In this document: positions 843-26,219 of the stretch, in pieces
How the letters are laid out: every line of letters begins with the position of its first letter
How positions within the stretch are numbered: position 1 is the first letter of the stretch
Source: a virus
IMG/VR virus record: IMGVR_UViG_3300020421_000113
Span: 1-26,987 of that record
Direction: 5' to 3' (one strand)
Length of the DNA: 26,987 nucleotides
Program-made: the position numbers and the translations under genes
Notes under the pieces: generated by a model
Seen by the model: the letters and a program-made list of their open reading frames with translations, nothing else
What the model was told of the DNA's origin: nothing
The model's database searches: none

Positions 843-3362
843 ATGTCAAAATTCTATACTAATGTCTCACGATACGGAAATATGATTCTCCTTCGTGGGT
901 ATGATCACAACAAACGAATCACAGAGAAAATCAAATACGGGCCGAGCTTGTATGTAAGTACAAATCGTCCAACCAATTGGAAAACCCTTGATGGTACAGC
1001 TGTCAGCGAAGTTTCATTCCAAACAATGCGTGAAGCAACCGAGTGGGTAAAATCAAACAAAGACACTGCCGGACGCCATATATTTGGTAACACACGATAT
1101 ATCTCAACTTTCATCAATGACCACTTTCCTGGTCACATCGAGTTCGATAGAAACAAAGTAAATGTGAGTACTATCGATATCGAGGTTGCGTCGGATGATG
1201 GCTTTCCCGAGCCAGATAAAGCTGAGCATAAAGTTATATCAATAACTATTAAAAACAATATCGACAATACCTATCATATATGGGGTCTCGGCGATTACGA
1301 TGTTGCATCTACATATATGAAAACAAATCGTGTCATATACAACAAATGCGATAATGAAGCAGACTTACTTATTAAGTTTGTTACTCATTGGTCTCAACCT
1401 TCTAACTATCCAGATGTAATCACTGGTTGGAATACAAGGTTCTTTGATGTACCTTACTTAGTCAATCGAATTCATAAACTGATTGGTGAGGCATATGTCA
1501 AAAGACTAAGTCCATGGGGTATGATTGAGCGTAGAGATATTACAACCATGGGTAGGACTCAAACATCATATGAACTCAAAGGTATTTCTAACCTGGACTA
1601 TCTTGACCTATTCAAAAAGTTTGGTTACTCTTATGGTCCACAAGAATCATATAAGTTGGATCATATTGCTCATGTAGTCCTTGGAGAGAAAAAGCTATCA
1701 TATGAAGAGTATGGTAACCTACATAGTTTATACAAACATAATCATCAGAAGTTTATTGACTATAACATCAAAGACGTAGAGTTGGTTGACCGAATAGAAG
1801 ACAAGATGGGTCTGATTACTCTATGTATGACTATGGCATATAAAGGTGGTGTAAACTATAATGATACATTTGGTACAACTGCGATATGGGACACAATCAT
1901 TTATCGTAAGCTACATGAAAACAATATTGTAATACCATTCATAGAAGATAAAGTCAAAACATTCTATCCAGGTGGTTATGTCAAAGAGCCACAAGTTGGT
2001 ATACATGAGAACCTGGTAAGTTTCGATTTAAACTCTCTATATCCTTCGATCATTATGCAATACAATATGTCACCAGAAACAATTGCTGAAGGTGAAGTAA
2101 CCAATGTAGATATCGAACAAATACTCACAAAATCATCTCGACCAAATAACAGAGGTAAAGCATTAGCCGCTAATGGTCAATACTTCAATACTGACAAAGT
2201 CGGAATCATTCCATTGATTATTGACGAGATGTATCAAGAACGTGTCGGCATCAAAGCTGATATGATTAAAGCACAAAAGAAATTACAAAAGGTGGATAAA
2301 AATGACAAACAAGAACTATACTCAATCGAACGAGAGATATCAATTGCCGAGAATAGGCAAATGGCTATTAAGATTCTACTTAACTCTCTTTATGGTGCTA
2401 TGGGTAATAAGTACTTTCGTTTTTTCGACCAACGGATTGCTGAAGCAATTACCCTCACCGGACAGCTTACAATACGATGGGCCGAGTATGCACTTAACTC
2501 CTACCTTAATCGAACAATGCGAACAACATCGTTTAAAGACTATGTCGTCGCAATCGACACCGATTCGTTGTATGTTAGCCTAGATAGTATCGTTGAGATA
2601 TTCAAACCAAAGAGCACTATTGATTTCCTAGATAAGATTTGCCAAGATACACTTGAACCTGTATTGGCTAAATCATATGATGAGTTATATTCTATGCTAG
2701 GCGGAATATCAAATCGAATGGTTATGTCTAGAGAAGTGATTGCTGACCGTGGTATATGGACAGCTAAAAAGCGATACATACTTAATGTATTGGATAACGA
2801 AGGTGTTCGCTATAAAGAACCTAAGCTCAAGATCATGGGTATTGAAGCAATCAAATCTTCAACTCCAGAACCATGTCGTGATGCTCTTAAGCAATTGTTT
2901 AAAGTTATCATGTCAAGTAATGAAGCAGAAGTCCAACAGTCTATTGAACAATTCAAAAACTATTTCAAGACATTACCTGCTGATGAGATTGCTTTCCCTC
3001 GTGGAGTCTCAAAGGTTAAAGAATACAAAGATCATAATACTATATACAAAAAAGGTACTCCGATACATGTTCGTGGTTCTTTATTGTTCAACAAACAAGT
3101 CCAGGATTTGGCTCTTACAAAGAAGTATGAGTTAATCCAAAATGGCGATAAGATTAAGTTCGTATACTTACGAACACCAAACATAATCAAGGAGAATGTT
3201 ATTGCTTTCCCTGATTACTTACCTGAAGAATTTAACCTTCACAAGTATATCGATTTCGATTTACAATTCCAAAAGACATTCTTGGATCCAATTGAACCGA
3301 TACTCGATGCTGTTGGTTGGAACTCCGAAGAGGTTGCATCCTTGGAGGATTTCTTTGGGTAG
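843..3362 (+). CDS. 43: DNA polymerase, family B (T4 gp43-like)
   Basis: The 839-aa replicative polymerase, with 3'-5' proofreading. Exonuclease motifs: TIDIEVA near residue 110 (Exo I, DxE), GWNTRFFDVP near 194 (Exo II) and YNIKD near 307 (Exo III). Polymerase motifs: SFDLNSLYPSII near 393 (motif A), KILLNSLYGAMGN near 510 (motif B), AIDTDSLYV near 570 (motif C), and a KKRYI site downstream. All catalytic aspartates are present and the frame is unbroken. T4 gp43 is 898 aa, so this is slightly shorter. The N-terminus (SKFYTNVSRYGNMILLRG) fits the family, so the start at 843 is credible even though it has no Shine-Dalgarno and sits next to the promoter -10 box. Confidence 0.97.
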   Translation: MSKFYTNVSRYGNMILLRGYDHNKRITEKIKYGPSLYVSTNRPTNWKTLDGTAVSEVSFQTMREATEWVKSNKDTAGRHIFGNTRYISTFINDHFPGHIEFDRNKVNVSTIDIEVASDDGFPEPDKAEHKVISITIKNNIDNTYHIWGLGDYDVASTYMKTNRVIYNKCDNEADLLIKFVTHWSQPSNYPDVITGWNTRFFDVPYLVNRIHKLIGEAYVKRLSPWGMIERRDITTMGRTQTSYELKGISNLDYLDLFKKFGYSYGPQESYKLDHIAHVVLGEKKLSYEEYGNLHSLYKHNHQKFIDYNIKDVELVDRIEDKMGLITLCMTMAYKGGVNYNDTFGTTAIWDTIIYRKLHENNIVIPFIEDKVKTFYPGGYVKEPQVGIHENLVSFDLNSLYPSIIMQYNMSPETIAEGEVTNVDIEQILTKSSRPNNRGKALAANGQYFNTDKVGIIPLIIDEMYQERVGIKADMIKAQKKLQKVDKNDKQELYSIEREISIAENRQMAIKILLNSLYGAMGNKYFRFFDQRIAEAITLTGQLTIRWAEYALNSYLNRTMRTTSFKDYVVAIDTDSLYVSLDSIVEIFKPKSTIDFLDKICQDTLEPVLAKSYDELYSMLGGISNRMVMSREVIADRGIWTAKKRYILNVLDNEGVRYKEPKLKIMGIEAIKSSTPEPCRDALKQLFKVIMSSNEAEVQQSIEQFKNYFKTLPADEIAFPRGVSKVKEYKDHNTIYKKGTPIHVRGSLLFNKQVQDLALTKKYELIQNGDKIKFVYLRTPNIIKENVIAFPDYLPEEFNLHKYIDFDLQFQKTFLDPIEPILDAVGWNSEEVASLEDFFG

Positions 3363-12445: not shown

Positions 12446-13495
12446 ATGTCTATAATGGATAAATTAAAAAAGAATAGTAAAATCAAAAGTACTGATATAC
12501 TTGCTGATTCACCACTATTCGCAGAGAAGGATATGATTCCTACAGATGTACCTATGGTAAACGTTGCTTTATCAGGGGATATGGAAGGAGGACTGTCATC
12601 TGGACTAACAGTATTGGCAGGACCATCCAAACACTTTAAGACAAGTTTCGCGTTACTTATGGGCGCAGCTTATCTTAACAAATACGAAGATGCTGTAATG
12701 TTGTTTTATGATTCAGAGTTTGGATCACCACAAAAGTATTTTGAATCTTTTGGTATCGATACAAGTAGAGTATTGCATACACCAATTACAGATGTCGAAC
12801 AATTAAAATTTGATTTAGTTGGTCAACTTGAAAACATTGAGAGAGGAGATAAGGTTGTTATAGTTATCGATTCTATTGGTAACCTTGCATCTAAGAAAGA
12901 ATTAGAAGATGCACTCAATGAAAAGTCAGTGGCTGATATGTCAAGAGCCAAAGCGTTGAAGGGACTGTTCCGAATGGTCACTCCTTATCTTACGATGAAG
13001 AACGTCCCTTTACTCGCTGTTAACCATACTTATCAAGAGATTGGATTGTTTCCTAAAGCAATTGTTTCAGGTGGTACAGGTATTTATTACTCAGCTGATA
13101 ACATTTGGATTATTGGAAGACGCCAACAGAAAAAAGGTACTGATGTTACAGGGTATCACTTTATAATTAATGTAGAGAAATCAAGGTTTGTAAAAGAGAA
13201 ATCTAAAATCCCAGTTGAAGTTACTTGGGAAGGTGGTATCGCAACCTATGGTGGATTACTCGATGTAGCCTTAGCAGGTGGATATGTAACTAAACCAAAT
13301 GTTGGTTGGTATGCAAGAGTCGATAAAGCTACAGGTGAGATTGAAGATGGTAAGGTTAGAGAAAAAGATACTAAGACTAAAAAGTTCTGGGATCCAATCT
13401 TTAAAGATACAGACTTCAAAGAATTCGTAATGTCATATTACTCTATTGGTCACAAGCCATTGCTTGAGATTGATTTAGATCTTGAGGAAGAGTAG
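12446..13495 (+). CDS. uvsX: UvsX, RecA-like recombinase
   Basis: A 349-aa strand-exchange ATPase. Walker A is LAGPSKHFKTSF (57-68), very like T4 UvsX GPSKSFKSNF. Walker B is VVIVIDSIGNL (137-147). AVNHTYQEIGLF and SGGTGIYYSADNIWIIGRRQ match UvsX DNA-binding and interface segments. The acidic tail (DLDLEEE) is typical of RecA-family proteins. It supports recombination-dependent replication. AGGAGA lies before the ATG, two bases after the bS21 stop. T4 UvsX is 391 aa, so this is a shorter marine-type version. Confidence 0.95.
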   Translation: MSIMDKLKKNSKIKSTDILADSPLFAEKDMIPTDVPMVNVALSGDMEGGLSSGLTVLAGPSKHFKTSFALLMGAAYLNKYEDAVMLFYDSEFGSPQKYFESFGIDTSRVLHTPITDVEQLKFDLVGQLENIERGDKVVIVIDSIGNLASKKELEDALNEKSVADMSRAKALKGLFRMVTPYLTMKNVPLLAVNHTYQEIGLFPKAIVSGGTGIYYSADNIWIIGRRQQKKGTDVTGYHFIINVEKSRFVKEKSKIPVEVTWEGGIATYGGLLDVALAGGYVTKPNVGWYARVDKATGEIEDGKVREKDTKTKKFWDPIFKDTDFKEFVMSYYSIGHKPLLEIDLDLEEE

Positions 13496-13833
13496 TGTTT
13501 GAAATTACTGAAAACGACTACACATATGTAGAGAACGAGCAATCAATTGTACAGGGCGTGAAATATAAATCAGGCCCTTACAAAGATGTCATCGTAATGT
13601 ATGGGACAGTGTCTATAAAGGAAGACGAAGATCTAGATGTTGCTAGGTTAGGATTTACTTTTCAGATAGCTGACCCTGCAGAGTTTACAGTAGAAGAATT
13701 AGAGAAAGAAGAAGCTTTCAAAAATTACATGGGCGATGTGCTTAGGCATATCATTATAAATAACTTAGATAATAAAAAAGCAAGGATAGGAAATATTGAG
13801 TCAGAACAATCAACTCCCGACACACATACTTAA
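13495..13833 (+). CDS. Conserved unknown between uvsX and gp41, 112 aa
   Basis: A 112-aa acidic protein (MFEITENDYTYVENEQSI at the start), with beta-strand-like segments to about residue 62, then a helical segment (VEELEKEEAFKNYMGDVLRHII). It begins with GTG in a TAGTG junction, overlapping the uvsX stop by one base, with GAGGAAG just upstream. A gene in this position is common in marine T4-likes. No function is recognised; contact with UvsX or the helicase would fit the location. It overlaps gp41 by 38 bases. Confidence 0.65.
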   Translation: MFEITENDYTYVENEQSIVQGVKYKSGPYKDVIVMYGTVSIKEDEDLDVARLGFTFQIADPAEFTVEELEKEEAFKNYMGDVLRHIIINNLDNKKARIGNIESEQSTPDTHT

Positions 13834-15187
13834 TCACTTACTTAATAACGAAGAGTATTGCAGAAGAGTAATTCCATATATTAAAAAGGAATACTTTGAT
13901 GGTTCGCATCGTACTGTATTTGATTTAATTGTATCATTTGTTAATTCACATAACAAATTACCATCAGCAAATGTATTAGATCTTGAGCTTAAAAAGGTAA
14001 GTGCTCATGAAGAAATACTAAATGAAGCATCAAGACTGATTGAATCAATACAAGATAAGTCTGATGTTGATACTGATTACCTTATTAAAGAATCTGAAAA
14101 GTGGTGTAGAGACAGAGCTGTCTATATTGCCATAATGGAATCTATTCAGATTATTGATGGAAAAGACAAAGAAAGAAGTGAAGGTGCTATACCTGAAATA
14201 CTATCAGATGCATTAGGTGTATCGTTTGACCAAGCTATAGGTCATGACTATATCGATAACTCTGAAGAAAGATATGATTTCTATAATCTTAAAGAGGATA
14301 GGATTCCATTTGATTTAGATTACTTCAACAAAATTACAAAAGGTGGTTTACCAAACAAGACATTGAATATTGCTCTTGCCGGGACTGGTGTTGGTAAATC
14401 TTTGTTTATGTGTCATTGTGCCGCATCAGTTCTGGAACAAGGCAAGAACGTTTTATACATTACAATGGAAATGGCAGAGGAAAGAATAGCTGAAAGAATC
14501 GATGCTAATCTTATGAATTTACCAATAGAACAATTGGCATCTCTACCTAAAAATGTATTTGACAATAAGATTGGAAAGATAGCAAAAGGTGCAATAGGTA
14601 AACTTATTGTGAAAGAATACCCAACAGGTTCTGCTCATACTGGACACTTCAGAGCACTACTTAATGAACTAAAACTAAAGAAAACATTTAAACCAGACAT
14701 AATATATATAGATTATTTAAATATTTGTGCCTCTTCGCGTATGCGAGGAATGGGTGGAAGTATAAATAGTTATACATATATAAAAGCTATAGCGGAAGAA
14801 CTTCGTGGATTAGCTGTGGAATTCAATGTTCCGATAGTATCGGCAACTCAGACCACTAGGTCAGGGTTCAGTAATACTGACGTCGGTCTTGAGGATACAT
14901 CTGAATCATTTGGTTTACCGGCAACGGCTGACTTGATGTTTGCTCTAATTTCAACAGAGGAACTTGAAGAGTTAGGTCAATTATTGGTAAAGCAATTAAA
15001 GAATAGGTATAATGATCCAACTAAATATCGCAGGTTTGTGGTAGGAGTGGATCGTTCCCGCATGAAACTATATGATGTGGAAGAGTCGGCTCAGTCAGAT
15101 ATAATGTCTGACATGACGCCTGACAAACCTATAAATAAGTTCGGTGAAAGAGAACAACCAGATTCTTTCGCCGATTTCAAAGTATAA
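13796..15187 (+). CDS. 41: Replicative DNA helicase, DnaB-like (T4 gp41)
   Basis: A 463-aa hexameric 5'-3' helicase of the RecA/DnaB fold; T4 gp41 is 475 aa. The N-terminal helical domain spans about 1-150. Walker A is LAGTGVGKSLF (194-204). Walker B is DIIYIDYLN (301-309). VPIVSATQTTRSGF (about 347-360) is the DnaB-type sensor motif H3, and the DRSRMKLY segment near the end is also conserved. The start is a TTG (13796) giving MSQNNQLP, with AGGA before it, inside the preceding gene. Downstream come a small membrane protein and a strong terminator. Confidence 0.93.
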   Translation: MSQNNQLPTHILNHLLNNEEYCRRVIPYIKKEYFDGSHRTVFDLIVSFVNSHNKLPSANVLDLELKKVSAHEEILNEASRLIESIQDKSDVDTDYLIKESEKWCRDRAVYIAIMESIQIIDGKDKERSEGAIPEILSDALGVSFDQAIGHDYIDNSEERYDFYNLKEDRIPFDLDYFNKITKGGLPNKTLNIALAGTGVGKSLFMCHCAASVLEQGKNVLYITMEMAEERIAERIDANLMNLPIEQLASLPKNVFDNKIGKIAKGAIGKLIVKEYPTGSAHTGHFRALLNELKLKKTFKPDIIYIDYLNICASSRMRGMGGSINSYTYIKAIAEELRGLAVEFNVPIVSATQTTRSGFSNTDVGLEDTSESFGLPATADLMFALISTEELEELGQLLVKQLKNRYNDPTKYRRFVVGVDRSRMKLYDVEESAQSDIMSDMTPDKPINKFGEREQPDSFADFKV

Positions 15188-17092: not shown

Positions 17093-17100
17093 TATAAATA
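17093..17100 (+). promoter_or_regulatory. T4-late-type promoter box TATAAATA before the capsid-targeting-like cassette
   Basis: Exact TATAAATA in the short intergenic gap. A start about 6 bases downstream (near 17106) would leave AAGGAAA (17111-17117) and the ATG at 17125 in place, a fully workable arrangement. It opens the gene series with MKxFxxFIxE N-termini, matching late expression of head proteins. Confidence 0.55.
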
Positions 17101-17124: not shown

Positions 17125-18513
17125 ATGAAATTTAAATCTTTTATACAACAGCCATTAACCGAGGGGACAGCCCTCACACCATCTAATCTAGGTGAAAAGA
17201 ATTCTAAAACTGGCGAAGAGCGAATCGACATTCTGAGAGATTTGGTCAGAGGTAGTAAACCTTTAGAATTAGCAAAAGGTGGAACTGTTGTAGTAACTAA
17301 TATTGATGATGCACTTCATCATATTAAAAATTTCAAAAAGAATAATAACCACTATGGAAGACAAGGGTTTCCTTTAGAAACCAATGGTGGAACTGTTATG
17401 TCAAATCAACTTTTAAAATCAAAAGTATTTGGCGGAGGTGGTGGTGGAGCCGGTGGAGGTTCAGCTAACACTAAAAGAAACGAATCACATAATGCTGTAA
17501 TGCTTCATGCAATGTTAGAGCATGGATATAAACAGCCATTAGAATTTTTTACAAACGATATATTAAAGAATGCCTATAAGTTAGCAAAAGTAGATGCTAA
17601 GTGGGACGAAATATCTGCAATGCCAGATGACTGGATGTTATCATCGTATAATATCTCACAAGCTTTAATAGAAAAAGGTTATGTTCAAAAAGGACATACT
17701 ATACATCGTGGTAGTTCTGAAATGATTCGTATATATGCTAAAAAGAACGAAGCATATAAAAATATGGGTGTGAAACCACTTAAAGATGATAAGTGGAACC
17801 CTGGTGATGTATGGGCTATATCAAAAGGATTCGATATTGATTCATTACCTACTGACTCAGTAGATGCATTGAATACAGCAATACTTGAAGCTTATTTGGA
17901 TAGAACACTTGTTGGTATATCTTTAAAAGGACCTATGGTTAAAACAGTTCCAATCAAAGAGAATAATATTGACAAATCATTACTTAAAGAATATAAATAT
18001 GTCGCCTTTGAATTAGAAACAAAAGGTGGATCATATTGGTCAGCTAAGAACGCTACTCTGAAATACTCAGGTGGTGCATTACAGTTTAGAGACAATAAAC
18101 ATTTTGGTAATATCAAAGCTGAAAAGAAAGGTAAGAAAGCAATGGGTGGTGGATTATCATGGGGTATTATGTCAGACTATCTTGGAAGATATGGACGTAA
18201 ATACGCATTAAAACCACATACTCAATATGTAAAGAAAGTAGCTAAGAAAATAGAACGAGGCGATGAAAGAGCAATTAAGGAATACTACAAATACTTTAAT
18301 TACTTTTATAATAATGTTTCTTATGATGAGTTTGTAAAAGAACTCAAACAAAAACAAGGACATTGGATTTCAGCTAAGTTTGCTATAACATATTTAAGTT
18401 ATCAAATGCACCAGCTTGGTGGTAGAAAACTTAATGAATTAGTTACTAACTTTGTAAACTACGCTGGGTCAGAATTATCTGAGTCTAGTGCATATGTAAA
18501 GGCAGGGAAATAA
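17125..18513 (+). CDS. Virion-type protein with capsid-targeting-like N-terminus and possible nuclease core
   Basis: A 462-aa protein. The N-terminus MKFKSFIQQPLTE|G resembles the T4 internal-protein targeting peptide and ends in an LxE cleavage consensus of the gp21 prohead protease. It has a glycine-rich segment (FGGGGGGAGGGSANT, about 104-117) followed by KRNESHN (Glu120), HRGSS (194), KWNPGDVW (223-230; Asp228) and LVGISLKG (262-269; Lys268). The spaced Glu, Asp (PGD) and SLK are reminiscent of PD-(D/E)XK nucleases, and I recall phage proteins sharing the KWNPGDIW ... GISLK pattern. The nuclease call is inference only. First gene behind a late-type box. Confidence 0.6.
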   Translation: MKFKSFIQQPLTEGTALTPSNLGEKNSKTGEERIDILRDLVRGSKPLELAKGGTVVVTNIDDALHHIKNFKKNNNHYGRQGFPLETNGGTVMSNQLLKSKVFGGGGGGAGGGSANTKRNESHNAVMLHAMLEHGYKQPLEFFTNDILKNAYKLAKVDAKWDEISAMPDDWMLSSYNISQALIEKGYVQKGHTIHRGSSEMIRIYAKKNEAYKNMGVKPLKDDKWNPGDVWAISKGFDIDSLPTDSVDALNTAILEAYLDRTLVGISLKGPMVKTVPIKENNIDKSLLKEYKYVAFELETKGGSYWSAKNATLKYSGGALQFRDNKHFGNIKAEKKGKKAMGGGLSWGIMSDYLGRYGRKYALKPHTQYVKKVAKKIERGDERAIKEYYKYFNYFYNNVSYDEFVKELKQKQGHWISAKFAITYLSYQMHQLGGRKLNELVTNFVNYAGSELSESSAYVKAGK

Positions 18514-19145
18514 TGAAAAGATTTAAATCACATATTAACGAAGACATAGCTGTATATAAACCACAAGCTGAGCTTAAACCTGCTAAATACAAAGATATTA
18601 AAATATTTAAAGATGGATGGCAAAACATTCAGCTACCGCCGCCCCCGCCGGAGCGAATAGAAATAGACAAAGTAATAGAAATTTGTCATTCAGCAAGTGA
18701 AAAGGATATCGAAGAATACAAGCTATGTGATACAGATGCATCATATATGATTAAAGATTATATGGATAAGAATGATTTAGAATACGATAGTGTTAACATA
18801 GAATATATTGAAAGACAATGTGTACCTATTATTAGACATTATAAAAATCATTATAATAGACCAAGACCATATCAAGTAGCTGCGTATTATAACAAAGAAC
18901 TTAGAAGATTTAATACTGACACTGCTAGTACACCAGCATATCCATCAGGGCATACAGTTCAGCCATTGGTGGTAGCATTACATTATGCCAAAAAATATCC
19001 AGAGCATAAGTCACAATTAATAAAGATGGCAAACATATGTGGATATGGTAGAGTAATCGCAGGGTTACACTATCCTTCTGATTTTAGTTCAGGTGTAATA
19101 CTAGCAAATAAATTAATGGAATATATAGAACATGAAAAATTTTAA
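18513..19145 (+). CDS. PAP2-family acid phosphatase with capsid-targeting-like N-terminus
   Basis: A 210-aa protein. N-terminus MKRFKSHINE|D matches the targeting peptide with an IxE site at 8-10. A PPPPP linker lies near residue 46. The phosphatase signature is complete: HYNRPRP (113-119, from the KxxxxxxRP motif), YPSGHT (143-148, His147) and GRVIAGLHYPSD (179-190, Arg180, His186, Asp190). PAP2 enzymes remove phosphate from lipids, nucleotides or sugars through a phospho-histidine. No membrane segments are seen, so it is of the soluble class A type. Starts at a TAATG junction and overlaps the next gene by 14 bases. Confidence 0.82.
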   Translation: MKRFKSHINEDIAVYKPQAELKPAKYKDIKIFKDGWQNIQLPPPPPERIEIDKVIEICHSASEKDIEEYKLCDTDASYMIKDYMDKNDLEYDSVNIEYIERQCVPIIRHYKNHYNRPRPYQVAAYYNKELRRFNTDTASTPAYPSGHTVQPLVVALHYAKKYPEHKSQLIKMANICGYGRVIAGLHYPSDFSSGVILANKLMEYIEHEKF

Positions 19146-20367
19146 TAACTTTTTAGCCGAATCTAAAAACACTCATATGACTCATATTGAGGATTTAGTT
19201 TTAGACGGTGGAGTTAAGGGGGCACGCCAAGCAATCCTAGCGCTTAGGTCAATGAGGGATATGTTGAGCGGTAATGCAAAAGCACCAATGGACATTACTG
19301 TCAAGTGGGACGGTGCCCCCGCTTTATTTGCTGGAGAAGATCCAGAGACAGGTGAATTCTTTGTCGCTAAGAAAGGTATATTCGCAAAGAAGAAAGCAAT
19401 ATATCGAAACCATGCAGAGATTGATGCAGATACATCAGGCGACCTTAATAAGAAACTAAAGTTAGCATATGACTATCTCAAACCTCTTGGAATTAAAGGT
19501 ATTATCCAAGGCGACTTTATGTTTGAGAAAAAAGATTTAAAGAAAGAAAAGATCAATGGTGAATCTCATATTACTTTCCATCCAAATACAATTGTATATG
19601 CAGTCCCTACTAAGAGTCAGATAGGAAAAGAAATAAGTAAGGCTGAACTTGGTATAGTATGGCATACAACATATTCTGGTGGAACACTTGAGACAATGAG
19701 AGCAGAGTTTGGTAAAGAGATAGTTCCTAAACTCAAAAAGAGTTCTAAAGTATGGATGGTCGATGCAACACTTAGAGATTTATCAGGAACAGCAACATTA
19801 ACAGCTCAGGATAGTTTAGATATTTCTAAAAAGCTATCAGATGCAGGTAAAATATTCAAAAAAATTGCCAGTGGAGCACTTAAAGAAATCGAAAAAAATA
19901 AAGAACTTAATCTCATCATCAATGTATATAATAATACAAAGGTAAGAGAAGGACAGAGAATATCAAATACTAAGTCTCATGCAACAGGATTGGTTATGTT
20001 TGTAAATAATCGATATGCAAAAGAGATAGATAAGAGAAGTACTCAAAAAGGTAAGGATATACAAATACAAAAACGTGATGAGTTACTTGACTTTTTCAGT
20101 AAACAAAACATAAAAAACTTAAAATTAATCTTTGATTTGCAAAATTTAATCATCGATAGCAAATTAATTATTATAAATAAATTAAACAAACTATCTAAAA
20201 TTGATACGTTTGTTAAAACCAAAAATGGGTTTAAGGTTACCGGCGTAGAAGGCTTTGTAGCAATAGACCGATTAGAAGGTGGTGCTGTTAAGCTTGTTGA
20301 TAGAATGGAATTTTCTACAAACAACTTTAGCAAAGATATTATAAAAGGCTGGGACAATCCAGGCTAA
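19132..20367 (+). CDS. Ligase-fold nucleotidyltransferase-like protein (DUF6267-like) with capsid-targeting-like N-terminus
   Basis: A 411-aa protein. N-terminus MKNFNNFLAE|S is almost the T4 IPIII peptide (MKTYQEFIAE), with LAE at 8-10. Then THIEDLVLDGG, and DITVKWDGAPALFAGEDPE with KWDG (58-61), the KxDG motif I lysine of ATP-dependent DNA/RNA ligases and capping enzymes. Later VVEDLEGF-like motif IV equivalents: IQGDFMF near 126, EGFVAID (373-379) and AVKLVDR (385-391, motif V lysine 387). This layout resembles DUF6267 proteins of marine phages (from memory). The reaction is unknown: nick or RNA sealing, or nucleotidyl transfer to another substrate. The KWDG core argues for real chemistry rather than a structural part. 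Confidence 0.7.
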   Translation: MKNFNNFLAESKNTHMTHIEDLVLDGGVKGARQAILALRSMRDMLSGNAKAPMDITVKWDGAPALFAGEDPETGEFFVAKKGIFAKKKAIYRNHAEIDADTSGDLNKKLKLAYDYLKPLGIKGIIQGDFMFEKKDLKKEKINGESHITFHPNTIVYAVPTKSQIGKEISKAELGIVWHTTYSGGTLETMRAEFGKEIVPKLKKSSKVWMVDATLRDLSGTATLTAQDSLDISKKLSDAGKIFKKIASGALKEIEKNKELNLIINVYNNTKVREGQRISNTKSHATGLVMFVNNRYAKEIDKRSTQKGKDIQIQKRDELLDFFSKQNIKNLKLIFDLQNLIIDSKLIIINKLNKLSKIDTFVKTKNGFKVTGVEGFVAIDRLEGGAVKLVDRMEFSTNNFSKDIIKGWDNPG

Positions 20368-20388
20368 GATGGGATACCGAGGTAATAA

Positions 20389-21783
20389 ATGTCAGTTAAA
20401 TCATTCAGTGATTTTTTAACAGAGTCAACAAAAGAAGTTACATTCGTTTTTGGAAGGTTTAATCCTCCTACGATTGGACATCAAAAACTATTTGACCAAC
20501 TTAAAAAAATCAGTCGTGGCGGAGCATATCGTATATATGCTTCAAGATCCGTGGATAAAAACAAAAATCCACTTCAATTCAAAGATAAAATCAAATTCAT
20601 ACGTAAGATGTTTCCTAAACATGCTCGTAGTGTAATGGCAGATAAAGATGTCAGAACTGTATTAGATATTGCAGTTAAATTATATGACCAAGGATTTACA
20701 AAAGTAACTATGGTTGCTGGGTCAGATAGAGTTAAAGAATTTGATATCCTACTAAACAAATATAACGGTGCTAAATCAAGGCACGGTTTTTACGAATTCC
20801 AAGGTGCTATAAACGTAGTCAGCGCTGGAGAACGAGACCCAGACTCAGAAGGAGTATCTGGTATGTCAGCTTCAAAAATGCGAATGGCCGCTCAACAAAA
20901 TGATCTTGAAGGCTTCTCAAAAGGATTGCCTTCAGGATACCATCCTAACGACCTATTTAATGCTGTTAGGAAAGGAATGGGTCTGAAAGAAAAGAACTCT
21001 TTTAGAAAACATATACAACTTGCTCCTGTATCTGAAACAAGAGAAGACTATGTAGATGGTAATCTATATATTACAGGAGATAAAGTTCGTATAAAAGAAT
21101 CCAATGAGATAGGTTCTATTATACATTGTGGTGCAAATTATGTTATAATAGAATCTAACAATCAGAGAAAAAGATATTGGCTAGATGCAGTTGAAAAAGT
21201 AAATGAAGATTACGGAGCGGGAGAAATCGGAACTAAAAAATTACTAAAGAATTATTTAAAGATGACTCCATTCTCAGAAAAAGATACTTCATCAAAGAAA
21301 CCACAAGACCCTGATATAAAGGATAGAAAAGGTTCACAACCTGCTGGATATTATAAGGGTCTGAAATCTAAATCAACAAAAGATAAAAGAGCTGCACATT
21401 TCAAAAAGCATGCTAAGATGGACGATGATAATCCAAAAGCATATAAGAAAGCGCCAGGAGATGCAACAGCTAAAACAAAACCATCTAAACATACTAAGAA
21501 ATTTAAACAGATGTATGGTGAGATGTCAGAACATTTAACATTTGAAGACTTTACGATACAAGAGCAAGATAGTAAAAAAGCTCTTAAGAAAAAAGCCGAT
21601 AAGTCTGGTATGCCATACGGTATATTAAAAAAAGTTTTTGATAGAGGAGTAGCCGCCTGGAGAACAGGACATAGACCAGGTACTAATCCTACACAATGGG
21701 GTTTAGCAAGAGTTAATTCTTTTGTAACCAAATCAAAAGGTACATGGGGAGGCGCCGATAAAGACCTTGCCGCTAAAGTTTAG
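20389..21783 (+). CDS. NMNAT/cytidylyltransferase-like protein fused to a DUF5824-like domain, with two capsid-targeting-like motifs
   Basis: A 464-aa multidomain protein. Residues 1-12 MSVKSFSDFLTE|S form the targeting-like peptide. Residues 16-205 are a HIGH-superfamily nucleotidyltransferase: VTFVFGRFNPPTIGHQKL (17-34, TIGH), VAGSDRV, and SGMSASKMR (157-165, equivalent of ISSTxxR). Around 225-270 lies a KOW-like strand segment (DKVRIKESNEIGSIIHCG). Residues about 300-378 are a Lys/Asp-rich linker. LTFEDFTIQE (383-392) repeats the FxxFxIxE pattern internally, and the remainder (SGMPYGILKKVFDRGVAAWR ... LARVNSF) resembles DUF5824. NMN or related nucleotidyl transfer inside the injected host is possible. 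Ribosome binding site GAGG; 21-base gap upstream. Confidence 0.75.
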   Translation: MSVKSFSDFLTESTKEVTFVFGRFNPPTIGHQKLFDQLKKISRGGAYRIYASRSVDKNKNPLQFKDKIKFIRKMFPKHARSVMADKDVRTVLDIAVKLYDQGFTKVTMVAGSDRVKEFDILLNKYNGAKSRHGFYEFQGAINVVSAGERDPDSEGVSGMSASKMRMAAQQNDLEGFSKGLPSGYHPNDLFNAVRKGMGLKEKNSFRKHIQLAPVSETREDYVDGNLYITGDKVRIKESNEIGSIIHCGANYVIIESNNQRKRYWLDAVEKVNEDYGAGEIGTKKLLKNYLKMTPFSEKDTSSKKPQDPDIKDRKGSQPAGYYKGLKSKSTKDKRAAHFKKHAKMDDDNPKAYKKAPGDATAKTKPSKHTKKFKQMYGEMSEHLTFEDFTIQEQDSKKALKKKADKSGMPYGILKKVFDRGVAAWRTGHRPGTNPTQWGLARVNSFVTKSKGTWGGADKDLAAKV

Positions 21784-21792
21784 GAGAACGAA

Positions 21793-22218
21793 ATGAAATT
21801 TAAAGAAATTAGAGAAAAATATAGAAGTAAGTTCCCAGCGTCTCTAGTTGCTGCAGCTGTTAAGATTGCTCTTGACATGGGTGGTAATATGACTGGTGCT
21901 TATAAGAAAATCGAAAAAATGAAACGTGGGTTAGGGGACGACCCAATGGTTAAGGATGCATTACGATTAGCTAATGAATCTGTTGAAGAAATGACTGAAG
22001 ATAAAGATATACCATTTGGATATACATTCTTTGATAGATCTGATGTTAAAAAATTCACAGGACTTATTAAAACACTAAAAGGTTTAGAGTTAGTAAGTAG
22101 TGAAAAAATGAAAGGCGGACAATTTGTCGTAAGAGTTAAAGGACCAAGAAAGATTGTAGCAAAAGCTAATGCTCTAGCTATTAGAGTAATGTCAGAATGG
22201 GTGGAGAGTGTATCATAA
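21793..22218 (+). CDS. Conserved phage virion-type protein, 141 aa, capsid-targeting-like start
   Basis: N-terminus MKFKEIRE|K, a shorter variant of the targeting-like peptide. SLVAAAVKIALDMGGNMTGA and YKKIEKMKRGL follow (a motif widespread in marine T4-like virion proteins, from memory), then LRLANE. A C-terminal domain has FDRSDVKKFTGLIKTLKGL, GGQFVVRVKGPRKIVAKANA. That last block resembles one in the 22861 protein. AGGAG precedes the start. Function unknown. Confidence 0.65.
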   Translation: MKFKEIREKYRSKFPASLVAAAVKIALDMGGNMTGAYKKIEKMKRGLGDDPMVKDALRLANESVEEMTEDKDIPFGYTFFDRSDVKKFTGLIKTLKGLELVSSEKMKGGQFVVRVKGPRKIVAKANALAIRVMSEWVESVS

Positions 22219-22457
22219 TGAAAACATTTAATCAAGTAAGAGAAGCTAGGAAATTTAATTCAAAAAAAGAAGTAGCTGATGTTAAAAAAATAGACAAACA
22301 GTTAGAAGCAGCATATAAAGGTATGAATAGATTACAATATGGTAAATCAACTTATATGATGGATGTTAATGATGGTATCGTAACAGCAAGAAGAGCTTTA
22401 GCAGTCTATTCAGATATAGCAGCTAATGGCGAACTAGATGGGCCAATGGTTAAATAA
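22218..22457 (+). CDS. Small capsid-targeting-like protein, 79 aa
   Basis: MKTFNQVRE|ARKFNSKKEV, then KIDKQLEAAYKGMNRL and VNDGIVTARRALAVYSDIAA. Start chosen at the TAATG junction (22218) because the MKTF opening aligns with its neighbours and GGAGAG lies upstream; an upstream in-frame ATG (22197) would add seven residues within the preceding gene. Helical, basic. No domain recognised. VRE deviates from the strict (I/L)xE site. Confidence 0.6.
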   Translation: MKTFNQVREARKFNSKKEVADVKKIDKQLEAAYKGMNRLQYGKSTYMMDVNDGIVTARRALAVYSDIAANGELDGPMVK

Positions 22458-22861
22458 TGAAAACATTTAAAGAGCTCAGACAACAAGATATACTTAAAAA
22501 GCTTAAAAAGATTAAGGGTATTACTAAAGATCAATTGTCTGCGTTGGGTTCTATGAATCCTGCAACATTACAGATTGTTATTAATCAATTATCTTCGCTT
22601 GTTGCACACAATGAGCTCGACGAAAGGTCGGCACTTGTTATGAGTATACCAGAAATAATTAAAGTTATGCTTAAAGATATCCAGGCTAAATTGGAAAAAG
22701 AACTTAAAAAAGGCGATACAGAATTAGCAAACAATATAGGAAGAATTGTTGGACTCAGAGTAACTACTAAAGGACAACAAAAAAATAGAGCTTTCTTATA
22801 TGATTTAGAAAAAGGGTTTAGAAAAACAAATCCTAGAGGCTCTAGTAGAGGAAAACGATAA
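22457..22861 (+). CDS. Basic helical capsid-targeting-like protein, 134 aa
   Basis: MKTFKELRQQDILKKLKKIK, then DQLSALGSMNPATLQIVINQ, a helical middle, and a basic tail (KTNPRGSSRGKR). The start resembles MKTFxxLR of its neighbour but has Gln where cleavable proteins have Glu, so processing is doubtful. It begins in a TAATG junction with little Shine-Dalgarno support, suggesting translational coupling. No family recognised. Confidence 0.6.
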   Translation: MKTFKELRQQDILKKLKKIKGITKDQLSALGSMNPATLQIVINQLSSLVAHNELDERSALVMSIPEIIKVMLKDIQAKLEKELKKGDTELANNIGRIVGLRVTTKGQQKNRAFLYDLEKGFRKTNPRGSSRGKR

Positions 22862-23172
22862 TGGAAAGATTTAAAAATTATATAGAAGAAGAAAAGTTTC
22901 AGTTAGTAGATATGGATCCTGACACAGCAAGAGTTGCTGTTAAGCTTGCTAAGAAAGCTGGGCTGACACCAAAAAGTTATAAGTCAAGAAGCGGTGGTTT
23001 AGATATCTCTGTAGAAGGACCTAAGAAAAAAGTAGCTAAGTTTATAATGTCACTACCAGAGTCAAACGCTAACTGGGCTAAGTCATTAGAACTATTAAAA
23101 AGAAAAAGACTTTCTAGTAGTGATAAGAAAAAACTAGATGCTATTAGGGATTTACTCAATAAGGAAAAGTAA
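22861..23172 (+). CDS. Capsid-targeting-like protein, 103 aa
   Basis: MERFKNYIEE|EKFQLVDMDP: FKNYIEE matches the FxxFIxE pattern exactly, with IEE at 8-10. Then DTARVAVKLAKKAGLTPKSY and a strand-turn-helix block GGLDISVEGPKKKVAKFIM, which parallels GGQFVVRVKGPRKIVAKAN of the 21793 protein. Basic helical tail. Starts in TAATG with GAGGAAAA upstream. Function unknown. Confidence 0.65.
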   Translation: MERFKNYIEEEKFQLVDMDPDTARVAVKLAKKAGLTPKSYKSRSGGLDISVEGPKKKVAKFIMSLPESNANWAKSLELLKRKRLSSSDKKKLDAIRDLLNKEK

Positions 23173-23510
23173 TGAAAGATTTTAAAACATTCTTTGAAAA
23201 TAAAGGACCATGCTGGCCAGGTTATGTACAGGTTGGTATGAAAAAGAAAAATGGTAAAGATGTTCCTAATTGTGTTCCTAAAGAACAAGTAGAAGAAGGA
23301 AAAAACAAAAAGAGCGAAACTTGGGAAGATGGATTTAAACGAAGAGTTGTTCCAACCACTAAACCTGAACATAAGGAAGATGGATATAAGTGGAGAATTA
23401 AAGGTAAAGAGAAAGATCATTTATCTATTAAACTCTATAAGACTAAACCAGATTTTGCTGAATTTAAAAAACAAATGAGACGAGTTGCTGGACATGAATT
23501 CGGAGGTTAA
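23172..23510 (+). CDS. Capsid-targeting-like protein with phage CWPGY...PNCVP motif, 112 aa
   Basis: MKDFKTFFE|NKGPCWPGYV, then VGMKKKNGKDVPNCVPKE. The cysteine pair framed by CWPGY and VPNCVP is a recurrent element of marine T4-like virion proteins (from memory); the cysteines may bind metal or form a bridge. The second half is charged (WEDGFKRRVVPTTKPEHK). FFE deviates from the strict cleavage consensus. TAATG junction with AAGGA upstream. Confidence 0.65.
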   Translation: MKDFKTFFENKGPCWPGYVQVGMKKKNGKDVPNCVPKEQVEEGKNKKSETWEDGFKRRVVPTTKPEHKEDGYKWRIKGKEKDHLSIKLYKTKPDFAEFKKQMRRVAGHEFGG

Positions 23511-23871
23511 ACATTATACCTTTTCCGAATGGAAAGAAAGGTTTGCTATATACGAAGGTAAGTATGTACCTTTAGAGCAACCTATGTTAGAGCAACCAGA
23601 GTTAAACAAACCGAAAAGATCTTCAGGCCCTAGTAAATATGTGGTATATGTAAAGGATCCTAAGACAGGAAATATCAAAAAGATTAACTTCGGAGATGCA
23701 AAGGGTGGTTTATCTGCAAAGATAAGTGACAGAGATGCGGCAAGGAATTTTGCAAGTAGACACAATTGTGATACTAAGAACGACAAAACAAAAGCTGGAT
23801 ACTGGGCATGTAGATTACCAAAGTTTGCAAAAGAATTAGGAATGAAAGGTGGCGGCAACTATTTCTGGTAA
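23494..23871 (+). CDS. Conserved phage protein (DUF5872-like), capsid-targeting-like start
   Basis: A 125-aa protein beginning MNSEVKHYTFSEWKERFAIY, with FAIYE|G an IxE-type site near residue 19. The main domain, KYVVYVKDPKTGNIKKINFG, DRDAARNFASRHNCD and KAGYWACRLPKFAKELG, resembles DUF5872, a small domain often in phage virion proteins (from memory). Candidate metal ligands are His and Cys in SRHNC and Cys in WACR. A TTG at 23485 is an alternative start. Overlaps both neighbours. Confidence 0.65.
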   Translation: MNSEVKHYTFSEWKERFAIYEGKYVPLEQPMLEQPELNKPKRSSGPSKYVVYVKDPKTGNIKKINFGDAKGGLSAKISDRDAARNFASRHNCDTKNDKTKAGYWACRLPKFAKELGMKGGGNYFW

Positions 23872-25985: not shown

Positions 25986-26219
25986 ATGGCAACAAAATAT
26001 ACAAAATCATTCCAAGAATATTGTAAACAGTGGGAAGACGCTGCAGCCAATTCAGTAGCTGGTGGTGGTGTGTCTATGCCTGCAGATGCTATGGGTAGTA
26101 AAGCATTACTCAAAAGAAAGAAAAAAGTTTATGATGGCAGAACTAAAGAGGGCAAGAAGTTTATAGAACGAATGCTCGCTAGGAGAGCAAAGCGTGAAGC
26201 AACTAAAAAAATTACTTAA
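25986..26219 (+). CDS. Small basic phage protein, 77 aa
   Basis: MATKYTKSFQEYCKQWEDAA, then NSVAGGGVSMPADAM, and a Lys/Arg-rich tail (LLKRKKKVYDGRTKEGKKFI). SFQEYCKQWE faintly recalls the targeting peptide but is displaced and lacks an (I/L)xE site. Conserved small protein near this spot in related phages (from memory); function unknown. Confidence 0.6.
   Translation: MATKYTKSFQEYCKQWEDAAANSVAGGGVSMPADAMGSKALLKRKKKVYDGRTKEGKKFIERMLARRAKREATKKIT

Follow-up and report, generated by a model that had tools for sequence, protein, structure and literature searches.

The stretch of DNA analysed here (the window) comprises 26,987 nucleotides of the virus record IMGVR_UViG_3300020421_000113 from IMG/VR. 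It carries T4-like replication genes, namely a DNA polymerase (843-3362), a RecA/UvsX-like gene (12446-13495) and the gp41 helicase gene (13796-15187). After the helicase gene, and before gp61 as judged by synteny, lies a run of ten consecutive genes (17125-23871, Table 1) whose products begin with short related sequences, hereafter called tags. An original prediction from the sequence had proposed that these tags are capsid-targeting sequences (CTS) of the kind found on T4 internal proteins (IPs), and that the run encodes proteins packaged in the phage head. The N-termini on which this proposal relied are all present; the start of gene 6 is corrected to the ATG at 22218, the mechanically called open reading frame from 22197 adding MGGECII, and gene 10 has its ATG at 23494.

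Table 1. Features of the tagged run and its surroundings in the window. A slash within a sequence marks the predicted cut; aa, amino acids; nt, nucleotides.
Feature	Position	Strand	Remarks
Putative T4-type late promoter element TATAAATA	17093..17100	+	32 nt 5' of gene 1
Gene 1	17125..18513	+	462 aa, phrog_1462
Gene 1 tag, MKFKSFIQQPLTE/G	17125-17163	+	
Gene 2, PAP2 phosphatase	18513..19145	+	210 aa; Pfam PAP2 1.6e-10
Gene 2 tag, MKRFKSHINE/D	18513-18542	+	
Gene 3, DUF6267, ligase-like nucleotidyltransferase	19132..20367	+	411 aa; PF19782 1.1e-98
Gene 3 tag, MKNFNNFLAE/S	19132-19161	+	
Gene 4, NMNAT/cytidylyltransferase-like with C-terminal DUF5824	20389..21783	+	464 aa; phrog_3041 5e-98, PF19141 2.6e-17
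Gene 4 tag, MSVKSFSDFLTE/S	20389-20424	+	
Gene 5, basic	21793..22218	+	141 aa
Gene 5 tag, MKFKEIRE/K	21793-21816	+	
Gene 6, basic	22218..22457	+	79 aa
Gene 6 tag, MKTFNQVRE/A	22218-22244	+	
Gene 7, basic	22457..22861	+	134 aa
Gene 7 degenerate tag, MKTFKELRQ	22457-22483	+	Targeting residues kept, cleavage Glu lost
Gene 8, basic	22861..23172	+	103 aa
Gene 8 tag, MERFKNYIEE/E	22861-22890	+	
Gene 9, basic	23172..23510	+	112 aa; motif CWxGYxxxGxKxKxGxxVPNCVP
Gene 9 tag, MKDFKTFFE/N	23172-23198	+	P3 is Phe, not I/L
Gene 10, basic	23494..23871	+	125 aa
Gene 10 longer leader ending FAIYE/G	23494-23556	+	Likely site at residues 17-21
Possible eleventh member	25986..26219	+	77 aa, pI 10.2, leader FQEYCKQWE/DAA

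Mutation of the ten-residue CTS of T4 IPIII has assigned targeting to residues 4 and 7 and processing to residues 8 and 10, and the protease gp21 cleaves after L/I-x-E (PMC9026906). The reference used for comparison was MKTYQEFIAE, from T4 IPIII. The tags at 18513, 19132 and 22861 are in register with it: residues 4 and 7 are F/F in MKNFNNFLAE, F/H in MKRFKSHINE and F/Y in MERFKNYIEE, residue 8 is L, I and I, respectively, and E stands at position 10 in all three. The tag at 20389 is offset by 2, those at 21793 and 22218 are shorter by one residue, and the aromatic positions are F3/F6 at 17125 and F4/F7 at 23172, with F4/L7 at 22457. As had been claimed, most of the N-termini fit a gp21-type site, I/L/V-x-E being found close to the start of seven of the ten proteins (LTE, INE, LAE, LTE, IRE, VRE and IEE). 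Gene 10 carries IYE as its site, and the tags of genes 7 and 9, MKTFKELRQ and MKDFKTFFE, keep only the aromatic half. Some relatives of these two genes do carry a cleavage site (MKTFFELRE, MITFGDYLIE, MKTFEQYFTE), gene 7 relatives starting with MKTFFELRE or MKTFKEIQE, and the leaders of gene 10 relatives end in GLYE/G or ALYE/N. The cleavage sites of the major capsid proteins share this sequence (SFLTE/AEIGG in T4, GFLTE/TGPT in phage C48C1, NYISE/AAAP in the related contig G001). T4 gp24, from which the first 10 residues are removed (PMC9958956), has a leader, MAKINELLRE, similar to the ELRE/EIRE variants of the tag. The gp21-type protease on which the original prediction depended, the S77 prohead protease, was found in each of the ten complete reference genomes that were searched. 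Of ten partial contigs that are relatives of the window, four encode it (G001, G008, G009, G010); it was not found in the window itself. The small gene directly upstream of gp21, in the position of the T4 prohead-core genes gp67/gp68, begins with MRTFKELRE in C48C1 (14434), MLSFVELRE in G001 (13472) and MLSFAELRE in G008 (1758).

That the tag is a real feature and not a chance one is clear from several controls. A strict pattern was defined as M-x(1-4)-[FY]-xx-(hydrophobic)-[LIVMF]-x-E or the same pattern shortened by one residue. It is matched by 6 of the 10 run genes; when residues 2-14 of each N-terminus are shuffled, the mean falls to 0.14, and six matches were reached in none of 20,000 shuffles. 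Nor does the pattern occur at any of the 179 internal methionines of the window. In T4, as a positive control, the scan returns IPII, IPIII and gp61.1. The last of these (NC_000866 18966-19130, - strand, 54 aa) has the N-terminus MKTFKEFIKE, a good CTS, and sits between genes 41 and 61, where marine T4-likes have their tagged block. Across eleven related or reference genomes the pattern is matched 68 times in 2,142 genes versus 13.9 expected, and it is therefore not restricted to the window; such genome-wide counts are lower bounds, the starts given by a simple gene caller having missed some tags (e.g. that of the DUF6267 gene of DLP6). With the strict pattern, the genome-wide excess is small or absent in HTVC008M, DLP6 and S-SZBM1. 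It is true that proteins of AT-rich phages often begin with MK[KTN]F and that a loose pattern gives some chance matches elsewhere in every genome. However, the idea that the tags are merely generic AT-rich N-termini with a fortuitous Glu is contradicted by the composition-preserving shuffles, by the internal methionines, by the neighbouring families described below and by conservation in about 80 contigs. We rejected chance or composition as the origin of the tag on these grounds, and give it a negligible probability.

For conservation, a scan of IMG/VR gave 330 stretches with a relative of DUF6267, of which the best 80 loci were read together with 16 loci located by way of their PAP2 gene, the two sets partly overlapping; distinct N-termini carrying the strict tag were counted. 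The tag is present on 39/39 N-termini of NMNAT-like proteins, 28/38 of DUF6267, 13/18 of PAP2, 31/34 of gene 5 and 4/4 of gene 8 relatives. The share is lower for genes 1, 7, 9 and 10, whose leaders differ in length or have lost the Glu. Among 126 distinct N-termini from five neighbouring families of the same relatives, none carries the tag. The tag is kept on the families of the run and missing from its neighbours, and is therefore under selection and ends where the run ends. In tagged DUF6267 the residue after Glu is always A or S (22 A, 6 S). Gene 1 leaders vary freely among relatives (MNFKSFTLTE/A, MKSFLSLEPIKE/A, MNFKSFINKPQVISE/G) and mostly end with Glu before A or G.

The N-terminus could alternatively dock onto another partner such as the sliding clamp, through a PIP-like h-x-x-F-[FL] motif, the proteins then being accessories of replication and repair and not head cargo. 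FxxFL does resemble the C-terminal LEDFF-type ends of polymerases in these phages, the run adjoins the replication genes gp41 and gp61, and ligase-like and NMNAT-like activities would suit repair. However, the tag is on none of the replication proteins of the window, and clamp binding does not explain why (I/L)xE/A or S is conserved, why the leaders are identical to those of T4 IPs, why a late promoter precedes the run, why the small gene beside gp21 is tagged and why homologues are detected in virions. We regard this alternative as highly improbable.

The tag also behaves as a module, and domains shift from gene to gene. The untagged DUF6267 proteins of S-PRM1 and S-SZBM1 begin with MAKNTHLEHLEDD, just past the cut predicted for tagged forms (MKNFNNFLAE/SKNTHMTHIED in the window, MINFSKYITE/DKGGKNLHLEHIED in Melnitz). 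In Melnitz-3, a 650-residue NMNAT protein with the leader MKKFSEIIE/A gathers relatives of genes 4, 9 and 10 into a single polypeptide; gene 10 matches its C-terminal domain (6.7e-33), and C48C1 likewise has the gene 9 relative joined to its NMNAT-like protein. Conversely, the C-terminal domain of gene 4 is a separate 90-residue protein in C48C1 with its own leader, MITFKKYLEE, and the gene 5 domain forms part of larger tagged proteins in G001 and C48C1. Larger tagged proteins holding the domains of genes 5, 9 and 10 are located at C48C1 66817, G001 52717 and Melnitz-3 14914. A polyprotein with internal gp21 sites between fused domains was considered and rejected, such sites not being enriched. 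The AlphaFold (AF2) model of gene 1 has a mean predicted local distance difference test score (pLDDT) of 84.7, with residues 1-13 as the sole N-terminal stretch of low confidence; these residues, disordered in the model, coincide exactly with the predicted propeptide MKFKSFIQQPLTE.

Expression of the run late in infection is supported by its upstream sequence. The published late promoter is NATAAATA in S-PM2 and TATAAATA in T4/KVP40 (PMC2984593). Among 25 distinct regions upstream of gene 1 relatives, 23 keep the element TATAAATA, while 15 other families tested gave one match in total; in G001 and G002 the element precedes the first tagged gene too. A tagged HAD-like gene that lies well away from the main block (71037 in G001, 34047 in G002) has its own TATAAATA 47 nt upstream. 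A further copy at 20172, conserved inside DUF6267 upstream of gene 4, was not counted as a promoter because its letters encode conserved residues. The proteins themselves are basic, nine of the ten having an isoelectric point (pI) of 9.5-10.3 while most neighbours are acidic. Across genomes the median pI of tagged proteins is 9.4 versus 5.9 (p 1.3e-6), like that of T4 IPII and IPIII (9.3 and 9.5).

Relatives of the run have been found in virions. NMNAT/cytidylyltransferase homologues of the gene 4 product were detected by mass spectrometry (MS) in virions of S-SM1 (PMC3037559), S-SCSM1 (PMC9602691), S-SZBM1 (PMC9146016) and S-CREM2 (PMC10665884). All four are tagged: MKKFSAFLNE, MKSFLQFLKE, MRFRQFIIE and MKNFSSFLTE, respectively. 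In S-SCSM1, 7 of the 10 genes that separate the gp41/mazG region from the primase are annotated as virion proteins (hypergeometric p 1e-4), among them S-SCSM1_90, the homologue of gene 1 (E 1.7e-11); we take these labels to reflect the 45 proteins that the same authors detected by MS. Gene 9 matches the MS-detected S-CREM2 gp160 (1.3e-5) and S-SZBM1_139 (1.8e-4, over 25 residues only), both being short matches. SSCSM1_93 (L184:7627-7836), also annotated as a virion protein, has a tag-like sequence at its C-terminus, ...RTFKEFLEYIE. The virion homologues could be co-purified cytoplasmic proteins, the tag having another role late in infection, and the authors of two of these studies (PMC9602691, PMC10665884) themselves allow for co-purification. 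Against this, the detections were made independently in four cyanophages by several groups, and the virion table of S-SZBM1 lists the tagged NMNAT-like protein but not the untagged DUF6267 protein encoded beside it. Co-purification thus seems a poor explanation, and we give it little probability.

Concerning the cargo, the original prediction had placed PAP2 phosphatase, ligase-fold, NMNAT-like and nuclease-like domains after the tag; the first three were recovered with differing support, and the last was not. PAP2 in gene 2 is above the Pfam cut-off, with the motifs K-x6-RP, PSGH and R-x5-H-x3-D in 22/22 relatives. Gene 4, NMNAT-like, has GR[FY]NPPTxGH and S[AG][ST]xxR in 54/54 relatives and a Pfam CTP_transf_like score of 20.6 bits, just below the 21-bit cut-off. 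Gene 3 is ligase-like, with KWDGAP in 62/62 relatives; the ten best structural matches of its model (pLDDT 66, only fair) are all RNA ligases with Z at most 6.8, REL1 (1xdn) giving Z 6.8 over 113 residues at a root-mean-square deviation of 3.4. The nuclease domain considered for gene 5 was dropped, both candidate matches being below cut-off (RNB 0.012, phrog_13933 0.048). For gene 1, Foldseek and VIA-align gave no convincing fold (best Z 4.1), and a sequence search of solved structures gave nothing significant.

Other tagged genes of relatives encode an HAD-like phosphatase, with Pfam just below cut-off (leader MKKFNEFLAE in G001, L199:11037-11642; MESFKQYIYE in G002, L204:14047-14652), a zeta-toxin/AAA_33-like P-loop kinase with a tag-like leader (MNFKSYLSVLEG or MKTFAELQEG; G008 41267, L211:1267-1947, and Melnitz-3 65855) and a protein in which a RimK-like ATP-grasp is combined with a zinc-protease-like domain (leader MERFNDFLTE; G002 101123, L208:1123-2559). 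In the window, the protein at 25986-26219 may be a further member of the set with an altered P3, its relatives beginning with MRRTFKEFEAMWE/DAA and MKTFKDMWE/DAA; this assignment is weak because P3 differs from I/L.

Packaged proteins of this kind might be mainly structural, acting as scaffold in the prohead core and staying in the shell without being injected, their enzyme folds having been exapted. T4 IPIII indeed influences head assembly as well (PMC9026906), the small gene at the core position bears the same tag, and many of the cargo proteins are small and basic. The intact catalytic motifs of the NMNAT-like, PAP2 and ligase-like proteins in all relatives checked are not expected for a purely structural use, and we consider this possibility unlikely. 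Because these motifs are intact, the likeliest role is to act as enzymes during the first minutes after infection, on NAD and nucleotide pools or in the repair of DNA or RNA ends. The small basic IP-like proteins are possibly counter-defence factors; T4 IPs block GmrSD restriction (PMC12373910). The data are compatible with NAD supply combined with end repair, and also with a counter-defence role like that of the T4 IPs.

Taken as a whole, 17125-23871 is very probably a late operon that encodes CTS-type head cargo in a Kyanoviridae-type T4-like phage, the cargo being trimmed by the S77 protease and presumably ejected. The cargo would be synthesized late from one operon, each protein with an N-terminal capsid-targeting peptide of 8-13 residues (one of 21). 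The aromatic or hydrophobic residues near positions 4 and 7 would dock the protein in the prohead core, gp21 would cleave after (I/L/V)-x-E, and the products, most of them basic, would be retained in the head with the DNA until their presumed ejection into the host. Sequence and homologues speak for late synthesis, docking and the cleavage site, and trimming would occur at the predicted bonds by analogy with T4. Packaging by a T4-type tag, the core of the original prediction, is strongly supported because the CTS residues match, the cleavage site is conserved, the late promoter is present, the proteins are basic, the tag is modular and tagged homologues are detected in virions.

Several observations weigh against this interpretation. 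The gene for gp21 was not found within the 27-kb fragment, genes 7 (LRQ) and 9 (FFE) of the present genome are without a canonical (I/L)xE site, and internal cleavage-like sites are not enriched (9 seen versus 7.9 expected). S-SCSM1_90 and _92 are annotated virion proteins without a clear tag; the tag is therefore not required for presence in the virion. The blocks of S-CREM2 and S-SZBM1 show no significant enrichment in MS hits (p 0.09 and 0.14), and the caution of two of the MS studies about co-purification has to be kept in mind. The virion data are drawn from other phages, for homologues of genes 1, 4 and 9. Ejection would follow by analogy with T4.

The nearest known system is that of T4 IPI, IPII and IPIII, which have a similar N-terminal leader of about 10 residues (aromatic 4 and 7, I/L 8, Glu 10, gp21 site) before unrelated, basic mature parts. 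In contrast, T4 has three small non-enzyme IPs at two loci, while here about ten tandem genes follow one late promoter and include enzymes of 23-51 kDa. T4 Alt, an ADP-ribosyltransferase, is likewise a head-packed enzyme trimmed by gp21, and it is ejected in T4 (PMC9026906), steps that would hold here by analogy; however, no sequence relation was recognised, the folds are others and the Alt propeptide has 7 residues. The alt gene is absent from cyanomyoviruses (PMC2984593). The virion NMNAT/cytidylyltransferases of cyanophages (T4-GC190; S-SM1, S-SCSM1, S-CREM2, S-SZBM1) are homologous to gene 4 (34-41% identity), tagged and MS-detected, but the parts of their reports that were read mention no leader, protease site or operon, and the present operon has a larger set of cargo proteins. 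Polyvalent proteins (PMC5512222) are injected multi-domain conflict proteins, and domains of the operon are indeed fused in Melnitz-3, whereas the proteins here are mainly single-domain, each with its own tag and without enrichment of internal sites.

A review has proposed the CTS as a route by which T4-like phages pack various proteins (PMC9026906). We found no paper tying virion NMNAT-like proteins to a CTS or a tagged operon, and a search for 'capsid targeting' in a library of open-access papers (subscription papers being outside it) gave none on cyanophages or other marine T4-likes. The claim that such a cassette is undescribed in marine T4-likes has thus to be narrowed: virion NMNATs of cyanophages have been reported since 2010, but no link to a CTS or tagged operon was found. 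The CTS principle is already known; what appears to be new is its use by marine T4-likes on a late enzyme operon and its presence on published virion NMNATs.

More tentatively, and with somewhat less than even confidence, the leader may be a portable address for any delivered protein and the operon a swappable multi-enzyme payload that restores NAD and protects or repairs DNA and RNA against defences before phage gene expression. The payload would comprise NMNAT-like, ligase-like and phosphatase proteins here, and HAD phosphatase, zeta-toxin-like kinase and ATP-grasp/protease in relatives, and the leader alone would predict the injected set in uncultured phages. The native targeting peptides may also be of use for loading proteins into phage heads. 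Marine T4-like phages are abundant, and a role is known for a minority of their genes. If the leader marks head cargo, many 'hypothetical proteins' would become a testable list of delivered proteins, the recurrent NMNAT-like enzymes in cyanophage virions would be explained, and the principle of the T4 internal proteins would be widened beyond small inhibitors to cover a cassette of enzymes.

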